Below are positions 5,265 through 16,225 of a DNA stretch of 21,696 bases, one piece after another. The notes below the pieces were generated by a model. It was not told the DNA's origin. It did no database searches and was given only the letters and a program-made list of their open reading frames with translations. A program made the position numbers and the translations under genes. Numbering within the stretch: the first letter of the stretch is position 1; the number at the start of each line of letters is the position of its first letter. The stretch is from a virus, in IMG/VR virus record IMGVR_UViG_3300025133_000683, positions 1 through 21,696 of that record. One strand, 5' to 3'.

Positions 5265-6014
5265 ACGCGCCTTTCGCTTTGTGGAATGCTAACCTATTTA
5301 AGAACTCTATTAGATTCATGTCGAAGTAATAGTCCCAAAGTTCAGGTCTTCCATTCGTGAGGTTGTCGACTGTGTTGAGCCATCCGTATTTGCTGATGAA
5401 CGTGCTAACTCCTTTTCCGCTTTGCGTTTGAGCCTCTGTGCCACTATCTCCAAAAAGCGAAGTGTACTGGTTACGGATGTCTCCCAATCCGATAAAAAAA
5501 AATCGGTTAACGGTTTCACTATTGTCATGGGTAGCTCTTTCATATCTTCGGCTGTCTGCTCATGCTTGTCGGCTTCGTGCGTTTTCTTGAACCATTTTCT
5601 ACGGTACGCAAAACAGGCTAAAAGGTTGTGAAGATTCTCATCTATCTTTTCGGGGTCTTGTAGGAAGTGCTGTAATGAAATCCATTGTCCACCGCTTATC
5701 TTCTTAGCTTTCTTCTCGAAATAGTACCGCGTTCCGTTTACCTTGCATTTGGTCTTTACTTTGCCTGTAATCGGATGAGATAGAAAACCCATCATATTGA
5801 TAAGATGTTCTATTCTATACCGTTCCTCGATAAGCAGAAGGTTCATTTCAACGCCTGAGAATAACGACACAATAGCACATTTAATTTCAAAGTCTGTCAC
5901 TTCTTTGTTGGTGCTTTCTTCGCGCTTGGTTTCGGATTCTTTTAACAGATCGTGGTATGCTTGGTATTCTCTGAGGGTTACCCCGTTCCAGTCTGTGGGT
6001 ATGGTTATTTTCAT
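5248..6014 (-). CDS. Tail assembly chaperone, predicted -1 frameshift product (GT-like), about 255 aa
   Basis: The frame ending at 5248 has no good start codon of its own (only TTG at 5487), yet encodes a sensible domain: FISKYGWLNTVDNLT followed by an acidic helix and LIEFLNRLAFHKAK, the kind of YGW...L..L...K helix seen in tail chaperones of flavobacterial phages. This frame is -1 relative to the 5316-6014 gene and stays open back through the T9 run at 5494-5502. A slip there joins residues 1-173 of frame 0 to about 82 residues of the -1 frame. The span is 767 nt plus one reread base, which is exactly 256 codons including the stop. This is the G/GT arrangement of tail chaperones. Frameshift efficiency cannot be judged from sequence. 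Confidence 0.66.
5316..6014 (-). CDS. Tail assembly chaperone, frame-0 product (G-like)
   Basis: A 232-aa protein starting MKITIPTDWNGVTLREYQAY, a T/IPxxWxxxTLxxYQ opening that I associate with tail-assembly chaperones of Bacteroidetes phages. The core to about residue 170 is helical with Lys/Glu-rich segments. Codons 171-174 (GAT TTT TTT TTA, 5504-5493) form a slippery run. Frame 0 continues to 5316 with a basic helix and a Ser/Thr-rich tail of low complexity. In lambda-type phages this chaperone coats the tape measure protein during tail assembly and is made in two forms by ribosomal frameshifting; the layout here fits. ATG 6014 overlaps the stop of the glycosyltransferase-like gene (ATGA). 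Confidence 0.72.
   Translation of the reverse strand: MKITIPTDWNGVTLREYQAYHDLLKESETKREESTNKEVTDFEIKCAIVSLFSGVEMNLLLIEERYRIEHLINMMGFLSHPITGKVKTKCKVNGTRYYFEKKAKKISGGQWISLQHFLQDPEKIDENLHNLLACFAYRRKWFKKTHEADKHEQTAEDMKELPMTIVKPLTDFFLSDWETSVTSTLRFLEIVAQRLKRKAEKELARSSANTDGSTQSTTSRMEDLNFGTITST
5490..5507 (-). other. Programmed -1 ribosomal frameshift site with flanking hairpin arms
   Basis: Minus-strand sequence is CCGAT-TTTTTTT-TATCGG. Read in frame 0 (GAT TTT TTT TTA) it contains the canonical heptamers T_TTT_TTT and T_TTT_TTA. The arms CCGAT and ATCGG are exact inverted repeats around the T run. Both frames are open across the site. Confidence 0.68.
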
Positions 6015-6979
6015 TCTAATCGTTCTTTTCGTTTTTCGTTGATGTCGTGGATGTTGTAGTTAGCAATGGCATATAACCTAAGGGCTTGACCTTCTTCCAT
6101 AATGGTATCTTTAGAAAGTCCTTCCGCTTTACTAATCGCATCTTTCCAGTTCTCCACTTTAAATATTCCTTTACAGTCATCAGTATAGGGATGTATGTTC
6201 TGTACAAAGATAGGCAATCCTTTCATACCTGCCTCGATTATCTTTAGATTGCTCTTGTACGTGTTGAACTTATTATCTACCAACGGGGCTATTGCTATGT
6301 CGAATTGCTCGTATAAATGTCCGTAGTTCCAAACGTCCAAAGCCTCAACGTAAACGGCTGTAAAGTTATCAGCTAACCTTTTCCATTCGGGTTCTTTTTG
6401 GTTGTAACCTGCTATAACAGGTGGACGTGTATAGCACCCATCTGTCAGCATCAGATCAGCGAAGTGAGTTACACCGCCCGCCCATCCTATCCTATTCTGG
6501 TAGTCTGTCTTGGGTTGCCATTGTGCTTCATTCGGGTCTATTGCGTTGGGTATTACGTGCCAATTCTGATTAAGTCTATCAACCGCTTTTCCTAAGTGTT
6601 CATGCGTTACCCATATCTCGTCCGAGTTGATAAGTGCCTCTATACTTTGCCGTTTAAAGAACTCTGAAATACCCTTCGCCACGTGCGCGGTATTCAATAG
6701 CCAATGGTCATCTATGTCGCAGATGACATACGTACCGCGATTCTTTAATTCCTTGATGAACTTTTCTGTCTTGAAGTATGTGCCGTCTTTTTTATTTGCT
6801 TCACCGAATAACGGAACGCGCCTGGAAAAGACTACCGCGTCAAAGTTGTGATCAAATACCTTAGCCGTTGCGCCCTCACATCTGAACACGTCCATATCAT
6901 TACCCAACAAAGAGAATGGCTTATGTAGTCTATGGTAATCAACGCCTGAATAACCTTCGTGAATGTAGCCTACTTTCAT
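6011..6979 (-). CDS. Glycosyltransferase, GT-B fold (family 1/4-like)
   Basis: A 322-aa protein with the outline of a GT-B glycosyltransferase: N-terminal Rossmann-like half (MKVGYIHEGYSGVDYHRL; CDIDDHW at 87-93), a hinge near HVIPNAIDPNEAQW (141-154), and a C-terminal nucleotide-sugar half with IGWAGGVTHFAD (164-175), FDIAIAPL (226-233) and YKSNLKIIEAGMKGLP (241-256), which matches the acidic E region that binds the sugar nucleotide. Family members move a sugar from a nucleotide donor to protein, lipid or DNA. It lies between the orphan DNA methyltransferase and the tail chaperone with 4-nt overlaps on both sides. Its acceptor could be a virion protein or modified DNA; sequence alone does not decide. 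Confidence 0.75.
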   Translation of the reverse strand: MKVGYIHEGYSGVDYHRLHKPFSLLGNDMDVFRCEGATAKVFDHNFDAVVFSRRVPLFGEANKKDGTYFKTEKFIKELKNRGTYVICDIDDHWLLNTAHVAKGISEFFKRQSIEALINSDEIWVTHEHLGKAVDRLNQNWHVIPNAIDPNEAQWQPKTDYQNRIGWAGGVTHFADLMLTDGCYTRPPVIAGYNQKEPEWKRLADNFTAVYVEALDVWNYGHLYEQFDIAIAPLVDNKFNTYKSNLKIIEAGMKGLPIFVQNIHPYTDDCKGIFKVENWKDAISKAEGLSKDTIMEEGQALRLYAIANYNIHDINEKRKERLE

Positions 6980-7740
6980 GATGTAAATAAATCCTTTTTA
7001 TTTATTCGAGCCTCTGTTATCTCGCAATATTCAGAACTCATTTCGCTACCTATCCAATTACGATTATTAATAATTGCCATCTTTGCTGTTGTTCCAGAAC
7101 CCATAAAGCAATCGTAAACTAAATCACCTTCATTACTCCAACTAATTATGTGGTCATTTGCTAATTGCTCTGGAAATATTGCAGGGTGTCCTGTTTTGTT
7201 TTTACCTACGTGAATTTTCCAAATATTAGAACGTCTGCCATATTCATTTCTAATAAAAAAACCATCACCTTTTTTATTCTCTCCTTTATTTATAACACTA
7301 TCTTTTCTTTGTTTTCTGCCACCATTAACACATTTATGGTCTGTGATAAAATTCATTGCTTTTGGTTTTCCTTTACTAAAAACAAACACATACTCAATCA
7401 CATTATAATATCTGTCTTGTGTTGGAACTCTACCTGTTTTCTCCCAAATCATTGTGTCGTGTAAATTAAAACCAATTTCTTTAAAAAATAATGCTTGTCT
7501 AAAACTTGTACCAGTCTCACTTCCTTTTATTGTAGCATCTCCAACTATCCAAACAACTACACCACCATCTTTAGTAACTCTATACAACTCTTTCGCTATA
7601 CTTTCAAAGTCAAAACTATAACCTTTATAATCTCTTAAATTGTCATAAGGTGGTGAAGTAACAGTTAAATCAATAAAGTTATCTTCCATTCGTGCCATTG
7701 TGTCAAGGCAGTTTTCATTGTATATTTTATCTGTAGTCAT
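6976..7740 (-). CDS. Orphan N4-cytosine/N6-adenine DNA methyltransferase (beta-type motif order)
   Basis: A 254-aa S-adenosylmethionine-dependent DNA methyltransferase. Catalytic motif IV is TSPPY at 28-32, followed by HPAIFP at 185-190, and the SAM-binding motif I DCFMGSGTT lies at 210-218 near the C-terminus. The order IV then I marks the beta class. The TSPPY form occurs in both N4-cytosine and N6-adenine enzymes, so the base is uncertain. No restriction endonuclease is adjacent, so it is likely an orphan enzyme protecting phage DNA from host restriction. Base use is clearly more A+T-rich than in the adjoining terminase gene (hand count 17-18 G+C per 60 against 26), a sign of separate acquisition. 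ATGA overlaps join it to both neighbours. Confidence 0.85.
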   Translation of the reverse strand: MTTDKIYNENCLDTMARMEDNFIDLTVTSPPYDNLRDYKGYSFDFESIAKELYRVTKDGGVVVWIVGDATIKGSETGTSFRQALFFKEIGFNLHDTMIWEKTGRVPTQDRYYNVIEYVFVFSKGKPKAMNFITDHKCVNGGRKQRKDSVINKGENKKGDGFFIRNEYGRRSNIWKIHVGKNKTGHPAIFPEQLANDHIISWSNEGDLVYDCFMGSGTTAKMAIINNRNWIGSEMSSEYCEITEARINKKDLFTS

Positions 7741-8894
7741 CTAATCGCGTATTTACCTGAACTACTTTTAAGTTTCTCCATTGCTACATATCTCAAAGCG
7801 TCTAAAGCATGGTTGAAATTATCGACTGGCTGACCTGTCTGCTCGCCTGTCTTGTCCGTTTTCCATACATAACCCCGAAGCTCTTTAATGATGTTGATAC
7901 TTGACGAAGTTACGAATAAAGGAATAGACCTGACCTTGTCAATTCCCGACCTAATACTATCAGCACCTTTCGGGCATCCCCTTATCCTGAATCCATGACC
8001 GCGTACTTCTGCTATGCTCTTTGGTTCTGAGCTATCCGCTATCCATTCGCCCTGTCTGAACCCTTGCAACCTTTCAGCTATTTGGGGGTTTGTTAGCCCT
8101 TTCTCATAAAGTAGCTCGTTAACGTATAAAGCACCATCGAAGTAACACACCTCCACGCCTGCGCTTGGGTCGTTAGAGTAGCCCCAATCGAGTCCAAAGG
8201 CTTTCCACTTCCATGAGTCAGGCATCTTGTCGCATTGCTTCCAGTTGTCATAGACCGCGCCCTGTAATGTTCCAAGTTCACCACATCCGTACACCTTCCA
8301 CCAATTCGCCCAATAGGTAGAGGTCTTTGCTTTCTCCTTTGCTTCCTCTATTGCTTGGACTATTGCAGGTTCTAAGGCTTCGTTATCCTTGTAGGTCAAT
8401 ATCACATGGTCCGCACCGTGTGCAACCAATTCAGTATGTGCCCAGAACTCCTGAGTAGGGTTAAAGTCCACGTAGATGAACTTCCTTGTCCTGATAGCCA
8501 TCTGATGATAAGCAGACCATGAGATGTTATTAGCCTCGTTCACAAATAGAATGTCACGCCTTGCGCCTCTGAGCTTGTCGCTTTGGTCTGCGCTAAAGAA
8601 CTCAATGATAGACCCGTTTAGAAACGTGTAAGTTAACGTGCTTCTATTCCATTGGGTGTAGATGTCGTTACCTATCTCGTCTTGGATTTTTAGGAAGTCA
8701 CGGATAGCACCCCTTCGGAGGTGTGGTATTGATTCAGATACGATGCTGATCTCTGATAGTGGGTTATTAGCCGCGTACATTATCAGAATAGGAATGATTG
8801 AAAAGGTCTTACTTGAAGATGTACCGCCTTGTACTACTCGTTCCCTCGTTCTTAACGCGCCTATCTTAGCTTGTGCCGTTGTCGCTTGGAACAT
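7737..8894 (-). CDS. terL: Terminase large subunit
   Basis: A 385-aa DNA-packaging motor ATPase/nuclease. The N-terminal ATPase has a Walker A GGTSSSKT (23-30), Walker B ILFVNE (115-120) with E120 as the likely catalytic carboxylate, and a YVDFNP motif III-like strand (141-146). The C-terminal RNase H-like nuclease shows FGLDWGYSNDPSA (D236), IADSSEPKSI (D287) and NHALDALRYV (D365). It cuts concatemeric phage DNA and drives it into proheads through the portal. It belongs to the PBSX/Terminase_3-like group. It follows terS with a 29-nt overlap and is coupled to the methyltransferase by ATGA. The length is a little short for TerL but all key motifs are present. Confidence 0.92.
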   Translation of the reverse strand: MFQATTAQAKIGALRTRERVVQGGTSSSKTFSIIPILIMYAANNPLSEISIVSESIPHLRRGAIRDFLKIQDEIGNDIYTQWNRSTLTYTFLNGSIIEFFSADQSDKLRGARRDILFVNEANNISWSAYHQMAIRTRKFIYVDFNPTQEFWAHTELVAHGADHVILTYKDNEALEPAIVQAIEEAKEKAKTSTYWANWWKVYGCGELGTLQGAVYDNWKQCDKMPDSWKWKAFGLDWGYSNDPSAGVEVCYFDGALYVNELLYEKGLTNPQIAERLQGFRQGEWIADSSEPKSIAEVRGHGFRIRGCPKGADSIRSGIDKVRSIPLFVTSSSINIIKELRGYVWKTDKTGEQTGQPVDNFNHALDALRYVAMEKLKSSSGKYAIR

Positions 8895-9300
8895 CTACAT
8901 CAAAAGGATTGAATGGAGTAGCGTCTGTCTTTAGTTGTACGTGCTGCTTATCCGTTAGACCGTTTATTCTTGCGGTTAGGTTGCTGTTATAGTGATTCAC
9001 CAAAGCACCATCCATCTGTTCAGCTCTTATTTCCTCGCGCACGCGATTGATGATTGGGCGATATTCATCATATGCACCATCTGTATTCTTGAAGTAGTGG
9101 TCTAATGTTCCGACATGATAAGCCCCGAAAGTCTTAAACCCTTCAACGGTTAGAGCGCGTTCTATTGGTGTGTGTTTTGTATCTCCATCCTTCCCTACAT
9201 ACTCAACCTTTATACGTGGGTTATCCTTCACTTCCTTTTTATAAGCAAGGAATAGTTCCCACATCTTTTCGGGTGTTTCTATGTATTTATGCTTTGCCAT
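8866..9300 (-). CDS. terS: Terminase small subunit
   Basis: A 144-aa protein directly upstream of TerL with a 29-nt overlap. It starts MAKHKYIETPEKMWELFLAY, contains a segment with LTVEGFKTFGAYHVG that reads as a helix-turn-helix-like recognition part (about 50-64), then an acidic-basic helical oligomerisation region and NSNLTARINGLTDKQHVQL (about 105-123), a pattern I recognise from TerS proteins of Bacteroidetes phages. The small subunit binds the packaging site and hands DNA to TerL. The last residues (DVDVPSDNGTS) overlap the TerL start. Position and motif agree, so the call is good even though TerS families diverge. Confidence 0.82.
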   Translation of the reverse strand: MAKHKYIETPEKMWELFLAYKKEVKDNPRIKVEYVGKDGDTKHTPIERALTVEGFKTFGAYHVGTLDHYFKNTDGAYDEYRPIINRVREEIRAEQMDGALVNHYNSNLTARINGLTDKQHVQLKTDATPFNPFDVDVPSDNGTS

Positions 9301-13028: not shown

Positions 13029-13058
13029 CAAATATAGTAATTTTATGTTAAAGTCAAA
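13029..13058 (-). promoter_or_regulatory. Bacteroidetes-type promoter for the replication operon
   Basis: On the minus strand TTTG (13058-13055), 18 nt, then TATATTTG (13036-13029) matches the flavobacterial -33 TTTG / -7 TAnnTTTG pair. It overlaps the last codons of the radical-SAM-like gene. Transcription would begin near 13022 and give a leader of about 130 nt before the initiator ATG. Confidence 0.65.
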
Positions 13059-13807
13059 CCGCACATTTCAATACAATTCTCACACTTTCCAATATAAGCC
13101 TTTCTGTTTAATTTACTGATAAAGCATTTTTTACCTAAAAACTTAGTTTCACTTATATCTATTATTCCTGAAGCGACTAATTCATTTTTCTTAGAAACCC
13201 TAAGAACCGTATCTAATACATTGTAATTCTTAAATAGATTATCCTGGATAGTTCTAAGCCTACGCCCTTCAAGACTAAATAGATTAAAGTCACATGAAAC
13301 AACACGTAAAACAGACCTACAATAAAGCTTTAGTCTTTCGTATTCTCTTAATCCAATATCAAGCATTTTACCATCAAGTGCTGATACAGATGTGTTTATA
13401 CAAACGTTATATTTTGAAAGCCTTTCTAATTGGTCTAAAGTAAGCTGATTCCAATGCTTTGTAATTATCACAATTTCCTTATTAATTTCACCCATCATCT
13501 CTATTATTGAGATTGTATGTTCCCAATCTTCACAAGGCTCACCAGAAGTACCCATTCTTACAAATGGTAGTGATATTTTATTGATTTTATTCGCTATTGC
13601 TTTTGCGTGTTTATCGCTTTTAAAATATCTTAGAACATTCTTTGAAAAGTCATAACCGTATTTCTTCGCATACCTCGCAGCATAGCAGTCACCGTAACAA
13701 CCCTTTTCATTTTGAGTCATACCAGATGAACACCCAAGAATAGGGTCTAAAGAATAGACCCCTCTTGCGTTTTTAGTAAGTGTTATTGTGTTTGTGTATT
13801 CTCTCAT
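13043..13807 (-). CDS. Radical-SAM-like Cys-rich enzyme, candidate DNA hypermodification partner
   Basis: A 254-aa protein. N-terminal Cys cluster: C26, C37 and C41 in LDPILGCSSGM and GCYGDCYAARYAKKYGYDF, a C-x10-C-x3-C pattern, not the classic CxxxCxxC. Then come alternating strands and helices typical of a radical SAM barrel: LPFVRMGTSGEPCEDWEHT (80-98), IVIITKHWNQLT (112-123), VCINTSVSALD (135-145), RSVLRVVSCDFN (164-175). The C-terminus has four more Cys (C228, C242, C245, C249), suited to a second metal or Fe-S site. The pattern is related in style to DUF5131/Gp37-like phage proteins. It is joined by a 4-nt ATGA overlap to the GNAT-methyltransferase fusion, so the two probably act together. 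The exact family and chemistry are unknown to me. The gene is A+T-rich. Confidence 0.6.
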   Translation of the reverse strand: MREYTNTITLTKNARGVYSLDPILGCSSGMTQNEKGCYGDCYAARYAKKYGYDFSKNVLRYFKSDKHAKAIANKINKISLPFVRMGTSGEPCEDWEHTISIIEMMGEINKEIVIITKHWNQLTLDQLERLSKYNVCINTSVSALDGKMLDIGLREYERLKLYCRSVLRVVSCDFNLFSLEGRRLRTIQDNLFKNYNVLDTVLRVSKKNELVASGIIDISETKFLGKKCFISKLNRKAYIGKCENCIEMCGLTLT

Positions 13808-15198
13808 AACCTACCGATATTAGGATAAAGTTCTTTTATCTTCTTCATGTCTCCTTTGTAGAACATATAAATCTTTTGGTCGGCTTTAGGGTACTTTCTG
13901 TGGTGTAGTGTCTTCTTTGCTTGTGAAAACCTTGTGAACTCACTTTCTAAATAAATAACCTTATTGTAAATATGAAGACCTTGCTCTTTGAAAAATAATT
14001 CATGTTCAGCCTCACAACCGTAGTAAGCCCCGTTTTTATCCCTGCTATCTCCAGTCATAACAACAAAGAAAGTATTATCATTCATCGCTTCTATTGCGTT
14101 TTTATAACCCTGGAACAATGTATCTCTAAATTGTTCGTATGTTCCTAAGTGATTTATCTCGCCTTCAGGTGGTAGCCCATCATAATCAATATACTTTTCA
14201 ACCCTGTAATATGGTGGACATGAAAACGTTAAGTCGCTTTTTCTTTTCGGTGTGTATTTTGAAGTATCTGACAAATGCCAATTAACATCATTAAAGTCTT
14301 TGCAAATAGCATTATTCGTGTCACATTGATTCTGTCTTATCTCTGATGATTCATAAGTAAAACCACAACCACCAGAAACAAAACCCATTTGAACACCACC
14401 GCCAAAAGGATTGTAAACATGACTGCCATCTTTAGGCATAAAGAACCGCGCTATTATTTCACAAGCGGTAGGGTCTAATACAGATGCGTTCCCGTTTAAT
14501 GTTTTCTTATCATCATGTACTATTTTACCTTTTACTATTTTATTTTTCGATAACACAACGTTAGAAAAACCTTTAGACCCTTGCCAACACCCTTCCCTGG
14601 ACGCAAACCTCGGATTAATTACGTTATGTTTTTCGCCTGCTTCATCCAATTTAGCGTTCCATGCTCTTTTATTTTGAAGCCATAACCCCGAAGTAGAACG
14701 CCATAGATTCGTCATTGCTGTATGTGCTAACAACTTCATTCTAACTTGTTCAGGTTCTCCATAATAGATGTACTTGAAATCGTTCTTATCTAAATTAACC
14801 TTAAACCCTATTTCTTCAAATACTGATGGTTTTTCTAAATCATGTTTTTTAGAAACTGTCATTATCATAGGGTAGCCGAATGTGTTGCCCTCAATGATTT
14901 TATTTACCATGCTTTGGTAAATTTCTACATCCTTAAATTTAGGATACATTGCAGATTGTAGTAAGCAGTATTCTTTAGCATCGTGGTTTATCTCAAAAGT
15001 GAAGAACCCTGCAAACTCATCGTCAACCTTTAGTATTATAGCTGAATGTATCTGCATATTCTTACGGGCTGCTCGATAAGCTATCTTGTCTTCAATGGCT
15101 AATTTTGCTACGTCTTCTTCGTAACCTGACCCGATAACGCTGTCAACTTTTATCAAGTCGACTTTTTCTGTAAATAGTTTTGGTTGCATTGTTTTCAT
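13804..15198 (-). CDS. GNAT-like acetyltransferase fused to a phage DNA methyltransferase-like domain
   Basis: A 464-aa two-domain protein from ATG 15198 (a GTG at 15234 would put the start inside a hairpin and is rejected). Residues about 48-140 look like a GNAT fold: IHSAIILKVDDEFAGFFTFE, CLLQSAMYPKF, and FEEIGFKVN at the end. The C-terminal half matches the phage methyltransferase family often linked to ParB-like domains: SVLDPTACEIIARFF, motif I VYNPFGGGVQMGFV (Asp replaced by Asn at 263), SSEIRQNQ, catalytic motif IV SCPPYYRVEKY (326-336), VVMTGDSRDKNGAYYG and KIYMFYKGD. It would act on DNA bases, with the GNAT part adding an acyl or related group. It has its own promoter and folded leader and is A+T-rich. 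The enzymatic role is inferred. Confidence 0.68.
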   Translation of the reverse strand: MKTMQPKLFTEKVDLIKVDSVIGSGYEEDVAKLAIEDKIAYRAARKNMQIHSAIILKVDDEFAGFFTFEINHDAKEYCLLQSAMYPKFKDVEIYQSMVNKIIEGNTFGYPMIMTVSKKHDLEKPSVFEEIGFKVNLDKNDFKYIYYGEPEQVRMKLLAHTAMTNLWRSTSGLWLQNKRAWNAKLDEAGEKHNVINPRFASREGCWQGSKGFSNVVLSKNKIVKGKIVHDDKKTLNGNASVLDPTACEIIARFFMPKDGSHVYNPFGGGVQMGFVSGGCGFTYESSEIRQNQCDTNNAICKDFNDVNWHLSDTSKYTPKRKSDLTFSCPPYYRVEKYIDYDGLPPEGEINHLGTYEQFRDTLFQGYKNAIEAMNDNTFFVVMTGDSRDKNGAYYGCEAEHELFFKEQGLHIYNKVIYLESEFTRFSQAKKTLHHRKYPKADQKIYMFYKGDMKKIKELYPNIGRL

Positions 15199-15202
15199 AA
15201 TT

Positions 15203-15248
15203 AAAAACAGCTCAGGCTTTCGGTGATGCAGCACCTACTCGCCCAAGC
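15203..15248 (-). promoter_or_regulatory. Structured leader with bulged-G (sarcin-ricin-like) loop and U tract
   Basis: Minus strand: GCTTGGGC - GAGTA - GGTG - CTGCAT - CACC - GAAA - GCCTGAGC - TGTTTTT. The outer 8-bp stem (15241-15248 with 15210-15217, two G.U pairs) and inner GGTG/CACC stem are separated by an internal loop GAGUA/GAAA that matches the AGUA/GAA bulged-G motif. A U run (15203-15207) follows, five bases before ATG 15198, so it could act as an attenuator, riboswitch-like element or protein-binding site. Confidence 0.5.
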
Positions 15249-15283
15249 CTTAGTGTTTTGTGGTTTACTCTGCATAGCTTTTT

Positions 15284-15291
15284 CAAATGTA
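15284..15291 (-). promoter_or_regulatory. -7 box for the modification cassette
   Basis: TACATTTG on the minus strand fits TAnnTTTG exactly, in the 101-nt spacer after the 99-aa gene. The start of transcription would be near 15277 and the message would carry the hairpin at 15203-15248. No strong -33 TTTG is visible. Confidence 0.5.
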
Positions 15292-15299
15292 TTAAAAAT

Positions 15300-15599
15300 T
15301 TACTTATAACCTAATTCTGTTTGCACGTTTTTCTGTTCCGTTGTTTTCCTCTGTTGGTATGTCTTACCTCTGAGGTGTGGGTGTTCCTCCTGGACTTTCC
15401 TTCTTGCTCGCATGATGCTTTCAGGGTGTGATAGTTCCTTGTTTCCTAATCTGTTCAGAAGTTCTAACGCTGTCAGGTATTTGTTTCTATTCACTTCTAA
15501 CCACCAAACACGAGCTATTAACTTAGTGTAGTCATCCCTGTACTTCGGGTCATTTTCCAGAAGTTGTTTTACGGTTTTGTAGCTGTTTAGAATCTTCAT
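15300..15599 (-). CDS. Small conserved protein with ESIMRARRKVQEEHPHLRG motif, 99 aa
   Basis: The product starts MKILNSYKTVKQLLENDPKY and contains ELLNRLGNKELSHPESIMRA followed by RRKVQEEHPHLRGKTYQQR (about 46-84). I recognise the pattern of SpxSIxRxRRKxQExxPxLRGxxYxxR as a small basic protein frequent in Bacteroidetes phages; it is likely DNA-binding, with a helix-turn-helix-like part around residues 43-70. It overlaps the cytosine methyltransferase by 4 nt (ATGA). A tail of Gln/Lys/Thr follows. No detailed role is known. Confidence 0.7.
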   Translation of the reverse strand: MKILNSYKTVKQLLENDPKYRDDYTKLIARVWWLEVNRNKYLTALELLNRLGNKELSHPESIMRARRKVQEEHPHLRGKTYQQRKTTEQKNVQTELGYK

Positions 15600-16225
15600 T
15601 GGTTAATCTTAAAAAGTCCGTCCCTTTTTGACTCGTTAAATATATGGATTCCTAAATCTGGATGCACACAATTACGAAGAACCTGACCAGGACAATGATT
15701 GTCTTTGTAATAAATATTCCCTTCGTATTGAATACCGAGCCAATCTTTTAGCTTTTGGGTTTCCTCTACCGTTCCTGCATTGATAAACCCTTTAATATTT
15801 TTCCCTTTGTATGGAAACACATTAAAATTCGACCAGAATAAGTGTCTATCTATTTTGAACGTGGGTCTTATTAGTGGTTTATAGTACGGGGTTACATTTT
15901 CAACCACCCATCTACCATTAAAAAAGTTATTTAAGAATAACACCTCTTGGTATAACTTCATATCTGGATAAATGTTTATGTCGTGTCTTGTAGCTTTTAC
16001 CATTCTGCTATGGCTTTGACAAGGTGGAGAACTCCAAATGAAATCAAACTCTTTGTAGTGGTCTAACAGATACTGATGAGCGTCACCTATTACTATTATA
16101 TCGTTGGGGTGTTGTTGTCTGTATATTTCTGCTATGTCTTTTTCCATTTCCACCGCAGTAACATCTACACCTTCCCATAACTTACGATTACCGCCAATTC
16201 CTGCATATAAGTTTAGAATCTTCAT
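15596..16225 (-). CDS. C5-cytosine DNA methyltransferase, compact form
   Basis: A 209-aa protein with C5-methyltransferase motifs: motif I MKILNLYAGIGGNRKLWEG (1-19), motif IV SSPPCQSHS (65-73, catalytic Cys69), motif VI VVENVTPYYKP (107-117), and a late GQVLRNCVHPDLGIHIF (180-196) resembling motif X. It is shorter than typical Dcm-type enzymes and shows no clear QRxR motif VIII and only a small target recognition region, as in compact phage enzymes. It methylates cytosine in DNA, probably to evade restriction. It is embedded in the early operon between NinG and the 99-aa gene with ATGA overlaps, and is more A+T-rich than its neighbours, which suggests acquisition. No endonuclease partner is visible. 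Confidence 0.82.
   Translation of the reverse strand: MKILNLYAGIGGNRKLWEGVDVTAVEMEKDIAEIYRQQHPNDIIVIGDAHQYLLDHYKEFDFIWSSPPCQSHSRMVKATRHDINIYPDMKLYQEVLFLNNFFNGRWVVENVTPYYKPLIRPTFKIDRHLFWSNFNVFPYKGKNIKGFINAGTVEETQKLKDWLGIQYEGNIYYKDNHCPGQVLRNCVHPDLGIHIFNESKRDGLFKINQ

Follow-up and report, generated by a model that had tools for sequence, protein, structure and literature searches.

A virus gene pair coding for a radical-SAM-fold protein and a GNAT-methyltransferase fusion as a candidate nucleobase-hypermodification module

The gene pair and its two proteins

Positions 1 to 21,696 of the IMG/VR virus record IMGVR_UViG_3300025133_000683 (21,696 nucleotides [nt], the whole stretch analyzed and hereafter the window) contain two overlapping open reading frames (ORFs) on the minus strand, which we examined comparatively and computationally, using sequence and predicted structure. 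The frame at 13043 to 13807 encodes a protein of 254 amino acids with a predicted radical S-adenosylmethionine (SAM) fold, here called RS, and the frame at 13804 to 15234 encodes a GNAT domain fused to a DNA methyltransferase-like domain. An earlier sequence-only reading had proposed them as a two-gene cassette joined by an ATGA overlap and possibly serving DNA hypermodification; both frames and the overlap are present. The second frame is open from a GTG at 15234, and its homologues favor the ATG at 15198 as the start, which gives a protein of 464 amino acids. The features are as follows.

13043..13807, minus strand: RS, radical-SAM-fold protein of 254 amino acids without a recognized sequence family (ORF, AF2 model, VIA matches)
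13685..13732, minus strand: C26-x10-C37-x3-C41, putative [4Fe-4S] site in the loop after strand 1, between strand residues 23-25 and helix residues 42-49 (all 52 aligned relatives)
13529..13549, minus strand: TSGEPCE, SGDPSEDW-type motif after strand 2 (G89, P91, E93 and W95 invariant in RS alignment A3)
13061..13084, minus strand: C242-x2-C245-x3-C249, C-terminal Cys triad (invariant in 52 of 52, a Thorarchaeota homologue among them)
13804..15198, minus strand: GNAT-methyltransferase fusion of 464 amino acids (ORF, homologue starts, AF2 model)
14752..15168, minus strand: GNAT-fold domain, residues 11-149, with degenerate coenzyme A (CoA)-binding motif A (VIA, motif comparison)
13807..14730, minus strand: amino-methyltransferase-fold domain, residues 157-464 (VIA, phrog_12517, phrog_498)
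14395..14412, minus strand: altered motif I NPFGGG, residues 263-268 (126 of 128 distinct genes)
14206..14223, minus strand: motif IV SCPPYY, residues 326-331 (motif comparison across relatives)
13804..13807, minus strand: ATGA stop-start overlap of the two genes (sequence)

The AF2 model of RS, built from 52 aligned relatives, has a mean pLDDT of 95.4 and a pTM of 0.91. When it was compared with known structures using VIA, all 50 matches listed were radical-SAM enzymes, most of them by title and a few (MtaB, MgmA, and a NifB entry) as known members of the superfamily, and the (beta/alpha)6 barrel core was present, which bears out the radical-SAM-like barrel of the sequence-only reading. The best match listed was spore photoproduct lyase (Z = 12.3; 3.8 Å over 216 residues), followed by viperin (Z = 10.4) and pyruvate formate-lyase activase (Z of about 10). 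The match to the lyase does not imply its function, and the two proteins differ in Cys spacing, in size, and in the C-terminal Cys triad of RS. In BFVD, the four RS matches at E ≤ 0.001 were named Radical_SAM or COG0535/AslB Fe-S oxidoreductase, the latter being radical-SAM families as well.

The three Cys of the proposed C-x10-C-x3-C cluster (C26, C37, and C41) sit in the loop that joins strand 1 to helix 1 and are invariant in all 52 aligned relatives. Among 114 distinct RS ORFs, ten residues (x10) separate the first two Cys in 94, eleven (x11) in 12, and nine (x9) in 5; in the other 3, the spacing was not found. Presumably, this loop and the SGDPSEDW-like motif occupy the positions at which radical-SAM enzymes carry their cluster and their GGE motif. 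Three of the four C-terminal Cys singled out earlier (C242, C245, and C249) are likewise invariant in 52 of 52, and the fourth, C228, is Cys in just 7. The triad may hold a second cluster or a zinc site; its CxxCxxxC motif is missing near the end of 15 of the 114 RS ORF strings, mostly fusions in which RS is not terminal, the others being truncated or frame-broken. Sequence searches with RS gave a single chance-level match in NCBIfam, only phrog_26275 in PHROGs (E = 0.016), nothing convincing among PDB sequences by profile (best E = 0.25), and no match in annotated phages at an E of 0.01. On its predicted structure, RS is therefore a radical-SAM-fold protein with unusual Cys spacing that belongs to no recognized sequence family. 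PADLOC matched neither RS nor the GNAT-methyltransferase protein, and a known defense system was rejected on this ground.

The AF2 model of the 464-amino-acid protein is less even than that of RS (pLDDT, 81.9). Both halves of the proposed fusion were found by VIA: residues 11-149 have a GNAT fold (Z = 15.7 to NatC and 15.4 to RimI), and the remainder matches methyltransferase folds (Z = 17.1 to Trm11 and 17.0 to TrmN). By sequence, the protein matches the phage methyltransferase families phrog_12517 (E = 4.9e-36) and phrog_498 (E = 7.4e-36), and it matches PF01555 weakly (E = 5.7e-4), with 20.3 bits against a curated cut-off of 26.7. The two motifs named in the sequence-only reading are conserved: motif I reads NPFGGGVQ in 126 of 128 distinct genes (absent or truncated in 2), in place of the standard DPF.G, and motif IV contains CPPYY in 125 of 128 (absent or truncated in 3). 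The SCPPYY of the window is of the motif IV type (D/N/S)PP(Y/F/W) with C as the residue before PP, as in the SCPPY of PF01555-matching relatives. The GNAT part carries many invariant polar residues. A search of annotated phages with the GNAT domain of L150 gave no match, and plasmids gave one distant methyltransferase match only.

The gene pair is AT-rich, as had been claimed, but modestly so (34.7% GC versus 39.6% for the window; none of 196 overlapping windows of the same size is as low). The -7 box proposed as its own, TACATTTG on the minus strand at 15284 to 15291, belongs to a class of site that occurs 21 times in the window and is expected 23.2 times by chance, and the supposedly structured leader folds no better than shuffled sequences (z = -0.92; 35 of 200 shuffles were as good). 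Promoter and leader, both at chance level, were dropped as an argument for a module.

Linkage, fusion, and partner exchange

Each search for related loci kept at most the best 80 loci, so that the counts reflect the closest members of each family; the relatives found per search numbered 95 with RS, 243 and 213 with two methyltransferase queries, and 131, 264, and at least 550 with the others. All 80 viral loci found with RS (the best 80 of 95 relatives) carry a methyltransferase gene, with the GNAT part visible in 77 and cut off by a contig end in 3 (L032, L035, and L056 start inside the methyltransferase gene). RS and the GNAT-methyltransferase gene overlap or abut, with gaps of -4 to +1 nt, in all but 2 of the 80 loci (78 of 80); in L006 and L075, interrupted methyltransferase frames leave the gap unmeasurable.

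From 153 loci of the two methyltransferase queries, we drew 115 distinct GNAT-methyltransferase genes, merging identical ones and keeping near-copies. RS lies directly downstream of 87 and upstream of or fused to 14, a canonical radical-SAM gene lies downstream of 11, and 3 have neither. Distances exceed 60 nt in six cases, five of them fusion linkers and the sixth the frame-broken L149. The three genes without a radical-SAM neighbor are those of L258 and L282, which start close to the upstream contig end, and that of L133, which has another Cys-cluster protein upstream (L133:87-818) with no Pfam match. L133 also has, in tandem, a second GNAT-methyltransferase-like gene, truncated at the contig end, whose GNAT motif A is intact (L133:5254-5871). 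This gene scores best against diaminobutyrate acetyltransferase (E = 3.8e-9, under the curated cut-off), and a search for further second GNAT genes of its type recovered only L133 itself.

The canonical substitute partner has CxxxCxxC in 10 of 11 cases, the eleventh being again L149, and PF04055 was matched in all three proteins tested, two of them over the cut-off. It also matches the PA0069, Rv2578c, and photoproduct-lyase models, all below their cut-offs, and is linked to RS by a weak profile similarity at most (E = 7.8e-4; probability, 25%; 72 columns). We placed 98 GNAT-methyltransferases on a tree (built quickly, with SH-aLRT as its sole measure of support, and leaving out genes more than 88% identical, truncated, or frame-broken). 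On it, the 11 substitutes are scattered like shuffled labels and require 11 changes, of which starred branches force no fewer than 8. RS itself is also exchanged, as methyltransferase domains that are 86 to 90% identical can pair with RS proteins only 49 to 55% identical. Because two such different proteins substitute for one another, there are good comparative grounds for taking RS, its odd Cys notwithstanding, to be a source of radical-SAM activity.

The three domains also occur in one frame, in the order RS-GNAT-methyltransferase, in 12 loci with 11 distinct ORFs (732 to 812 codons from stop to stop; one of them is at L256:4197-6392); 10 of the fused proteins form the fusion alignment A10. 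The sequence-only reading had set down beforehand that a missing barrel or GNAT fold, or a lack of co-occurrence elsewhere, would count against it. Neither outcome was seen: both folds are predicted, and the two families co-occur in 80 of 80 loci and with 101 of 115 genes, and the other radical-SAM family accompanies 11 more. Three enzyme folds, a radical-SAM barrel, a GNAT, and an amino-methyltransferase, thus travel as one unit. Acquisition as a unit, as claimed earlier, is half right, since the tree and the divergence of RS show that the radical-SAM partner has been repeatedly exchanged. As the families co-occur, the partner is swapped for another radical-SAM protein, and fusions exist, a dedicated multistep modification module is supported.

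Among the ORFs of at least 60 amino acids in 106 loci, no third neighbor is conserved within 3.5 kb of the module, and a third component was rejected on this ground. The commonest neighbor is a replication-initiation-like gene, found in 48 of the 106 at varying positions.

Sister modules of the transferase family

Named relatives of the transferase domain mostly carry, by annotation, a ParB-type N terminus in place of the GNAT domain. These phage ParB-type methyltransferases (phrog_498/phrog_12517), including those linked to a SAM decarboxylase, have a homologous transferase domain; the family described here differs in its N-terminal GNAT, in having NPFGGG rather than DPFAGG or D.FAGD, and in its radical-SAM partner. 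The transferase domain is homologous to methyltransferases encoded beside a SAM decarboxylase (E = 5.4e-36 by hhalign), as in Croceibacter phage P2559S and Pseudomonas phage ZRG1, where the decarboxylase gene follows that of the methyltransferase. An N-terminus scan of these two members of the decarboxylase set found no ParB domain in Pfam for the P2559S protein and one just under the cut-off for ZRG1. In IMG/VR, a decarboxylase is present in 74 of 80 loci of this subfamily (P2559S included), at most 250 bases past the end of the methyltransferase frame in all but one, and motif I is D.FAGD in 80 of 80, although a looser search in the control analysis put 3 of the 80 in another motif class.

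Seventy-nine control loci, which share one contig with the decarboxylase set (L420 and L331), were searched within 1.5 kb using models of RS, the canonical partner, GNAT, SAM decarboxylase, and one pyridoxal phosphate (PLP) enzyme. None of the 76 DPFAGG-type loci had a decarboxylase, RS, canonical partner, or PLP enzyme in that range. Two of the rest have D.FAGD and a decarboxylase, and one, not classed, has no partner. The cassette of D.FAGD methyltransferase and SAM decarboxylase is found in L301, L302, and L315-L394 (P2559S at L301:2470-4111).

According to PMC9992855, the P2559S decarboxylase is a working S-adenosylmethionine decarboxylase (AdoMetDC) that restored spermidine in an Escherichia coli speD mutant; the word "methyltransferase" does not occur in the main text of that paper. 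Because this AdoMetDC activity has been functionally shown, the D.FAGD cassette is a candidate DNA aminopropylation system. Other members of the family are linked to a PLP-enzyme domain (PALP, PF00291), which is inserted inside the methyltransferase of Pseudanabaena phage Pam4 and Erythrobacter phage ZS04 (L310:1012-3501 and L311:1090-3528) and encoded by an adjacent gene in mycobacteriophage AlanGrant (L306:1-2275). The transferase family seems to have been repeatedly retooled for non-methyl groups, and a non-methyl product is expected mainly because the altered SAM-binding motif accompanies a partner able to change SAM or the transferred group.

Proposed function and alternatives

We favor, with a probability of roughly 0.6, the reading that the pair is a self-contained nucleobase-hypermodification module acting most likely on the phage's own DNA. 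That the module modifies a nucleobase is very probable, and if it does, DNA would in turn be the probable target, because its nearest sequence kin and its commonest neighbor, the replication-initiation-like gene, point that way. The hypermodification proposed in the sequence-only reading has kept its multistep module, barrel, GNAT fold, and co-occurrence, while its promoter and leader have fallen away. Mechanistically, the methyltransferase-fold domain would bind DNA together with SAM or a SAM derivative and use its SCPPYY pocket to present an amino base, and the GNAT domain would bind and deliver a small acyl-type group. The radical-SAM partner would make a 5'-deoxyadenosyl radical, activating either the acyl-type group or a freshly alkylated base, and the radical step would form a bond out of reach of simple methylation or acylation, so that the base would end up with a group bigger than methyl. 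The likely benefit would be the shielding of phage DNA from host nucleases. The order given earlier, alkylation or acylation and then rearrangement, was a guess; acyl-derived, Elp3-like chemistry is our tentative choice over other step orders, at somewhat less than even odds.

GNAT-type and radical-SAM enzymes are both used on phage DNA bases, in Mu Mom and in phage thymidine hypermodification. Direct homology to Mom was not seen (GNAT domain by hhalign: E = 0.17; probability, 0.3%). The thymidine pathways include accompanying base-making and pyrophosphorylase/kinase genes; beside the module, no third gene is conserved within 3.5 kb. Elp3, as described in PMC13315578, acts on tRNA uridine with a radical-SAM and a GNAT domain, taking acetate from acetyl-CoA through a radical reaction to its addition to the base. 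The proposed division of labor would resemble that of Elp3, which leaves an acetyl-CoA-derived carboxymethyl group (cm5U in tRNA). The likeness lies in the joint use of the two domains on a nucleobase and in their order within one polypeptide, as in the 12 fused phage loci, the window having two genes. The Cys motif of Elp3, too, differs from CxxxCxxC. The phage module differs in its additional methyltransferase-fold domain, its degenerate GNAT CoA motif, and its two genes in most loci.

A wider version of this reading, which we hold to be possible though rather doubtful, makes the module a DNA counterpart of Elp3: a radical-SAM/GNAT/transferase enzyme, a single protein in some phages, that would attach to a DNA base a carbon group derived from acyl-CoA or SAM as part of a wider phage retooling strategy. 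One DNA "methyltransferase" family would then, just as doubtfully, have been reequipped in three or more ways, through pairing with SAM decarboxylase, with PLP enzymes, or with a GNAT and one of two radical-SAM families that stand in for each other, to install custom alkyls such as aminopropyl. In the open-license literature, we came across no report of an enzyme in which radical-SAM, GNAT, and methyltransferase folds are combined. Phage base hypermodification is already known; if the reading is right, radical chemistry combined with acyl delivery would be added to DNA modification. It would give restriction and defense research a new evasion mark, a further way for viruses to disguise DNA, and it predicts a sister mark, aminopropylated DNA, made by the phage enzymes adjoining SAM decarboxylase. 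The fused proteins allow a test with a single gene.

Several observations weigh against hypermodification of phage DNA by this pair. RS has no radical-SAM family by sequence (PF04055 was not matched, nor was anything else in Pfam), and it carries C-x9-11-C-x3-C in place of CxxxCxxC, a noncanonical spacing. Foldseek found nothing for RS in the PDB at E ≤ 0.001, the best match being the radical-SAM epimerase EpeE (5.5e-3). Among the 52 RS relatives, 8 match phrog_13321, a family with no function assigned there (best, 4.9e-5), and 1 each matches, weakly, DUF5131 (Gp37/Gp68; E = 1e-3) and Fer4_12 (E = 4.6e-3). DUF5131 was rejected as the parent family of RS, as this single weak scan match stands beside a meaningless profile comparison with the one member compared. 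The GNAT domain reads KDKxIY where the L133 paralogue has KGNGLA and has so lost the glycines of motif A, which for CoA is R/Q-x-x-G-x-G/A; for this reason, its donor may not be acetyl-CoA, or the domain may be noncatalytic. Of the two methyltransferase queries behind the linkage counts, A4 was built from RS-linked loci and A5 from loci without RS. DNA as the target rests on the kinship of the methyltransferase domain and on gene setting.

The comparison with Elp3 and the archaeal homologues of RS count on the same side. In hhalign, the fused proteins show no profile similarity to three archaeal Elp3 proteins (E = 0.12; probability, 0.5%), so their resemblance, as judged from profiles, is a likeness of design and not membership, and direct homology was not seen. 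Elp3 compares with the canonical substitute partner at an E of 1.5e-3 (probability, 17%), and its absence from the 50 VIA matches listed for RS excludes nothing. When alignment A3 was searched against 195 genomes of the phylum of the Thorarchaeota genome, 9 proved to carry RS homologues (L082:7809-9754 and L219-L234), one of them in tandem. On these archaeal loci, mostly short stretches, no GNAT or methyltransferase domain was found, and RS can therefore work in another setting. An A4 search of 190 genomes of the phylum gave one weak match, in a genome without RS.

The rival that survives best, which we nevertheless consider unlikely, is that the module tailors the donor or the product: a larger SAM-derived group (e.g., 3-amino-3-carboxypropyl) or a SAM analogue would be moved, with the GNAT acylating its amine and the radical-SAM enzyme trimming it. 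The degenerate GNAT motif A is why it is retained as a strong rival, and the replacement of D by N in motif I, which removes a charge, would suit a donor with an altered amine. The altered-motif-I sisters adjoin a source of decarboxylated SAM (74 of 80, with the AdoMetDC of P2559S functional [PMC9992855], versus 0 of 76 DPFAGG-type loci), and other members contain or adjoin PLP-enzyme domains. The diaminobutyrate acetyltransferase (EctA) match fits as well, but it belongs to a neighboring paralogue outside this family; there is no direct sign of which part of SAM is moved, and tailoring alone does not explain the strict retention of the radical enzyme.

Modification of tRNA or rRNA, as by Elp3, by the RNA-modifying enzymes TYW1/TYW2, or by the structural neighbors Trm11, Trm14, and TrmN, we regard as improbable. 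The best structural matches of the methyltransferase domain are indeed tRNA enzymes, and radical SAM with GNAT is a tRNA theme (Elp3 in PMC13315578). The closest annotated kin, however, are phage proteins named ParB or DNA methyltransferase, the replication-initiation-like gene is the commonest neighbor, and no tRNA gene was found in the window or in the 46 loci scanned, chosen among the longer ones, which speaks mildly against an RNA target. A tRNA-linked function was rejected on the same scan.

Very improbable, in our view, is a plain orphan DNA methyltransferase whose GNAT part is vestigial and whose neighbor is unrelated: the weak PF01555 match and the degenerate motif A would suit it, but tight linkage, fusions, repeated partner swaps, invariant polar GNAT residues, and the altered motif I in 126 of 128 genes do not. 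Equally remote is a module that acts on a protein or peptide, or that inactivates a host defense protein, with nucleic acid only as a guide. Proteins and peptides are indeed substrates of GNATs and of many radical-SAM enzymes, and several peptide enzymes are among the VIA matches listed for RS, but the loci have no conserved precursor-like neighbor among ORFs of at least 60 amino acids, the DNA-methyltransferase motif IV is kept, and neither protein matches PADLOC.

Elsewhere in the window, a glycosyltransferase-like gene (phrog_7162) overlaps a canonical N6/N4 methyltransferase gene beside the terminase (6011 to 7740), possibly a further DNA-modification pair. At 15596 to 16225 lies a short C5-cytosine-methyltransferase-like protein of 209 amino acids, of which the PF00145 match covers the first 77 residues only, and an ORF of similar appearance is present in L002 at 8217 to 8903.

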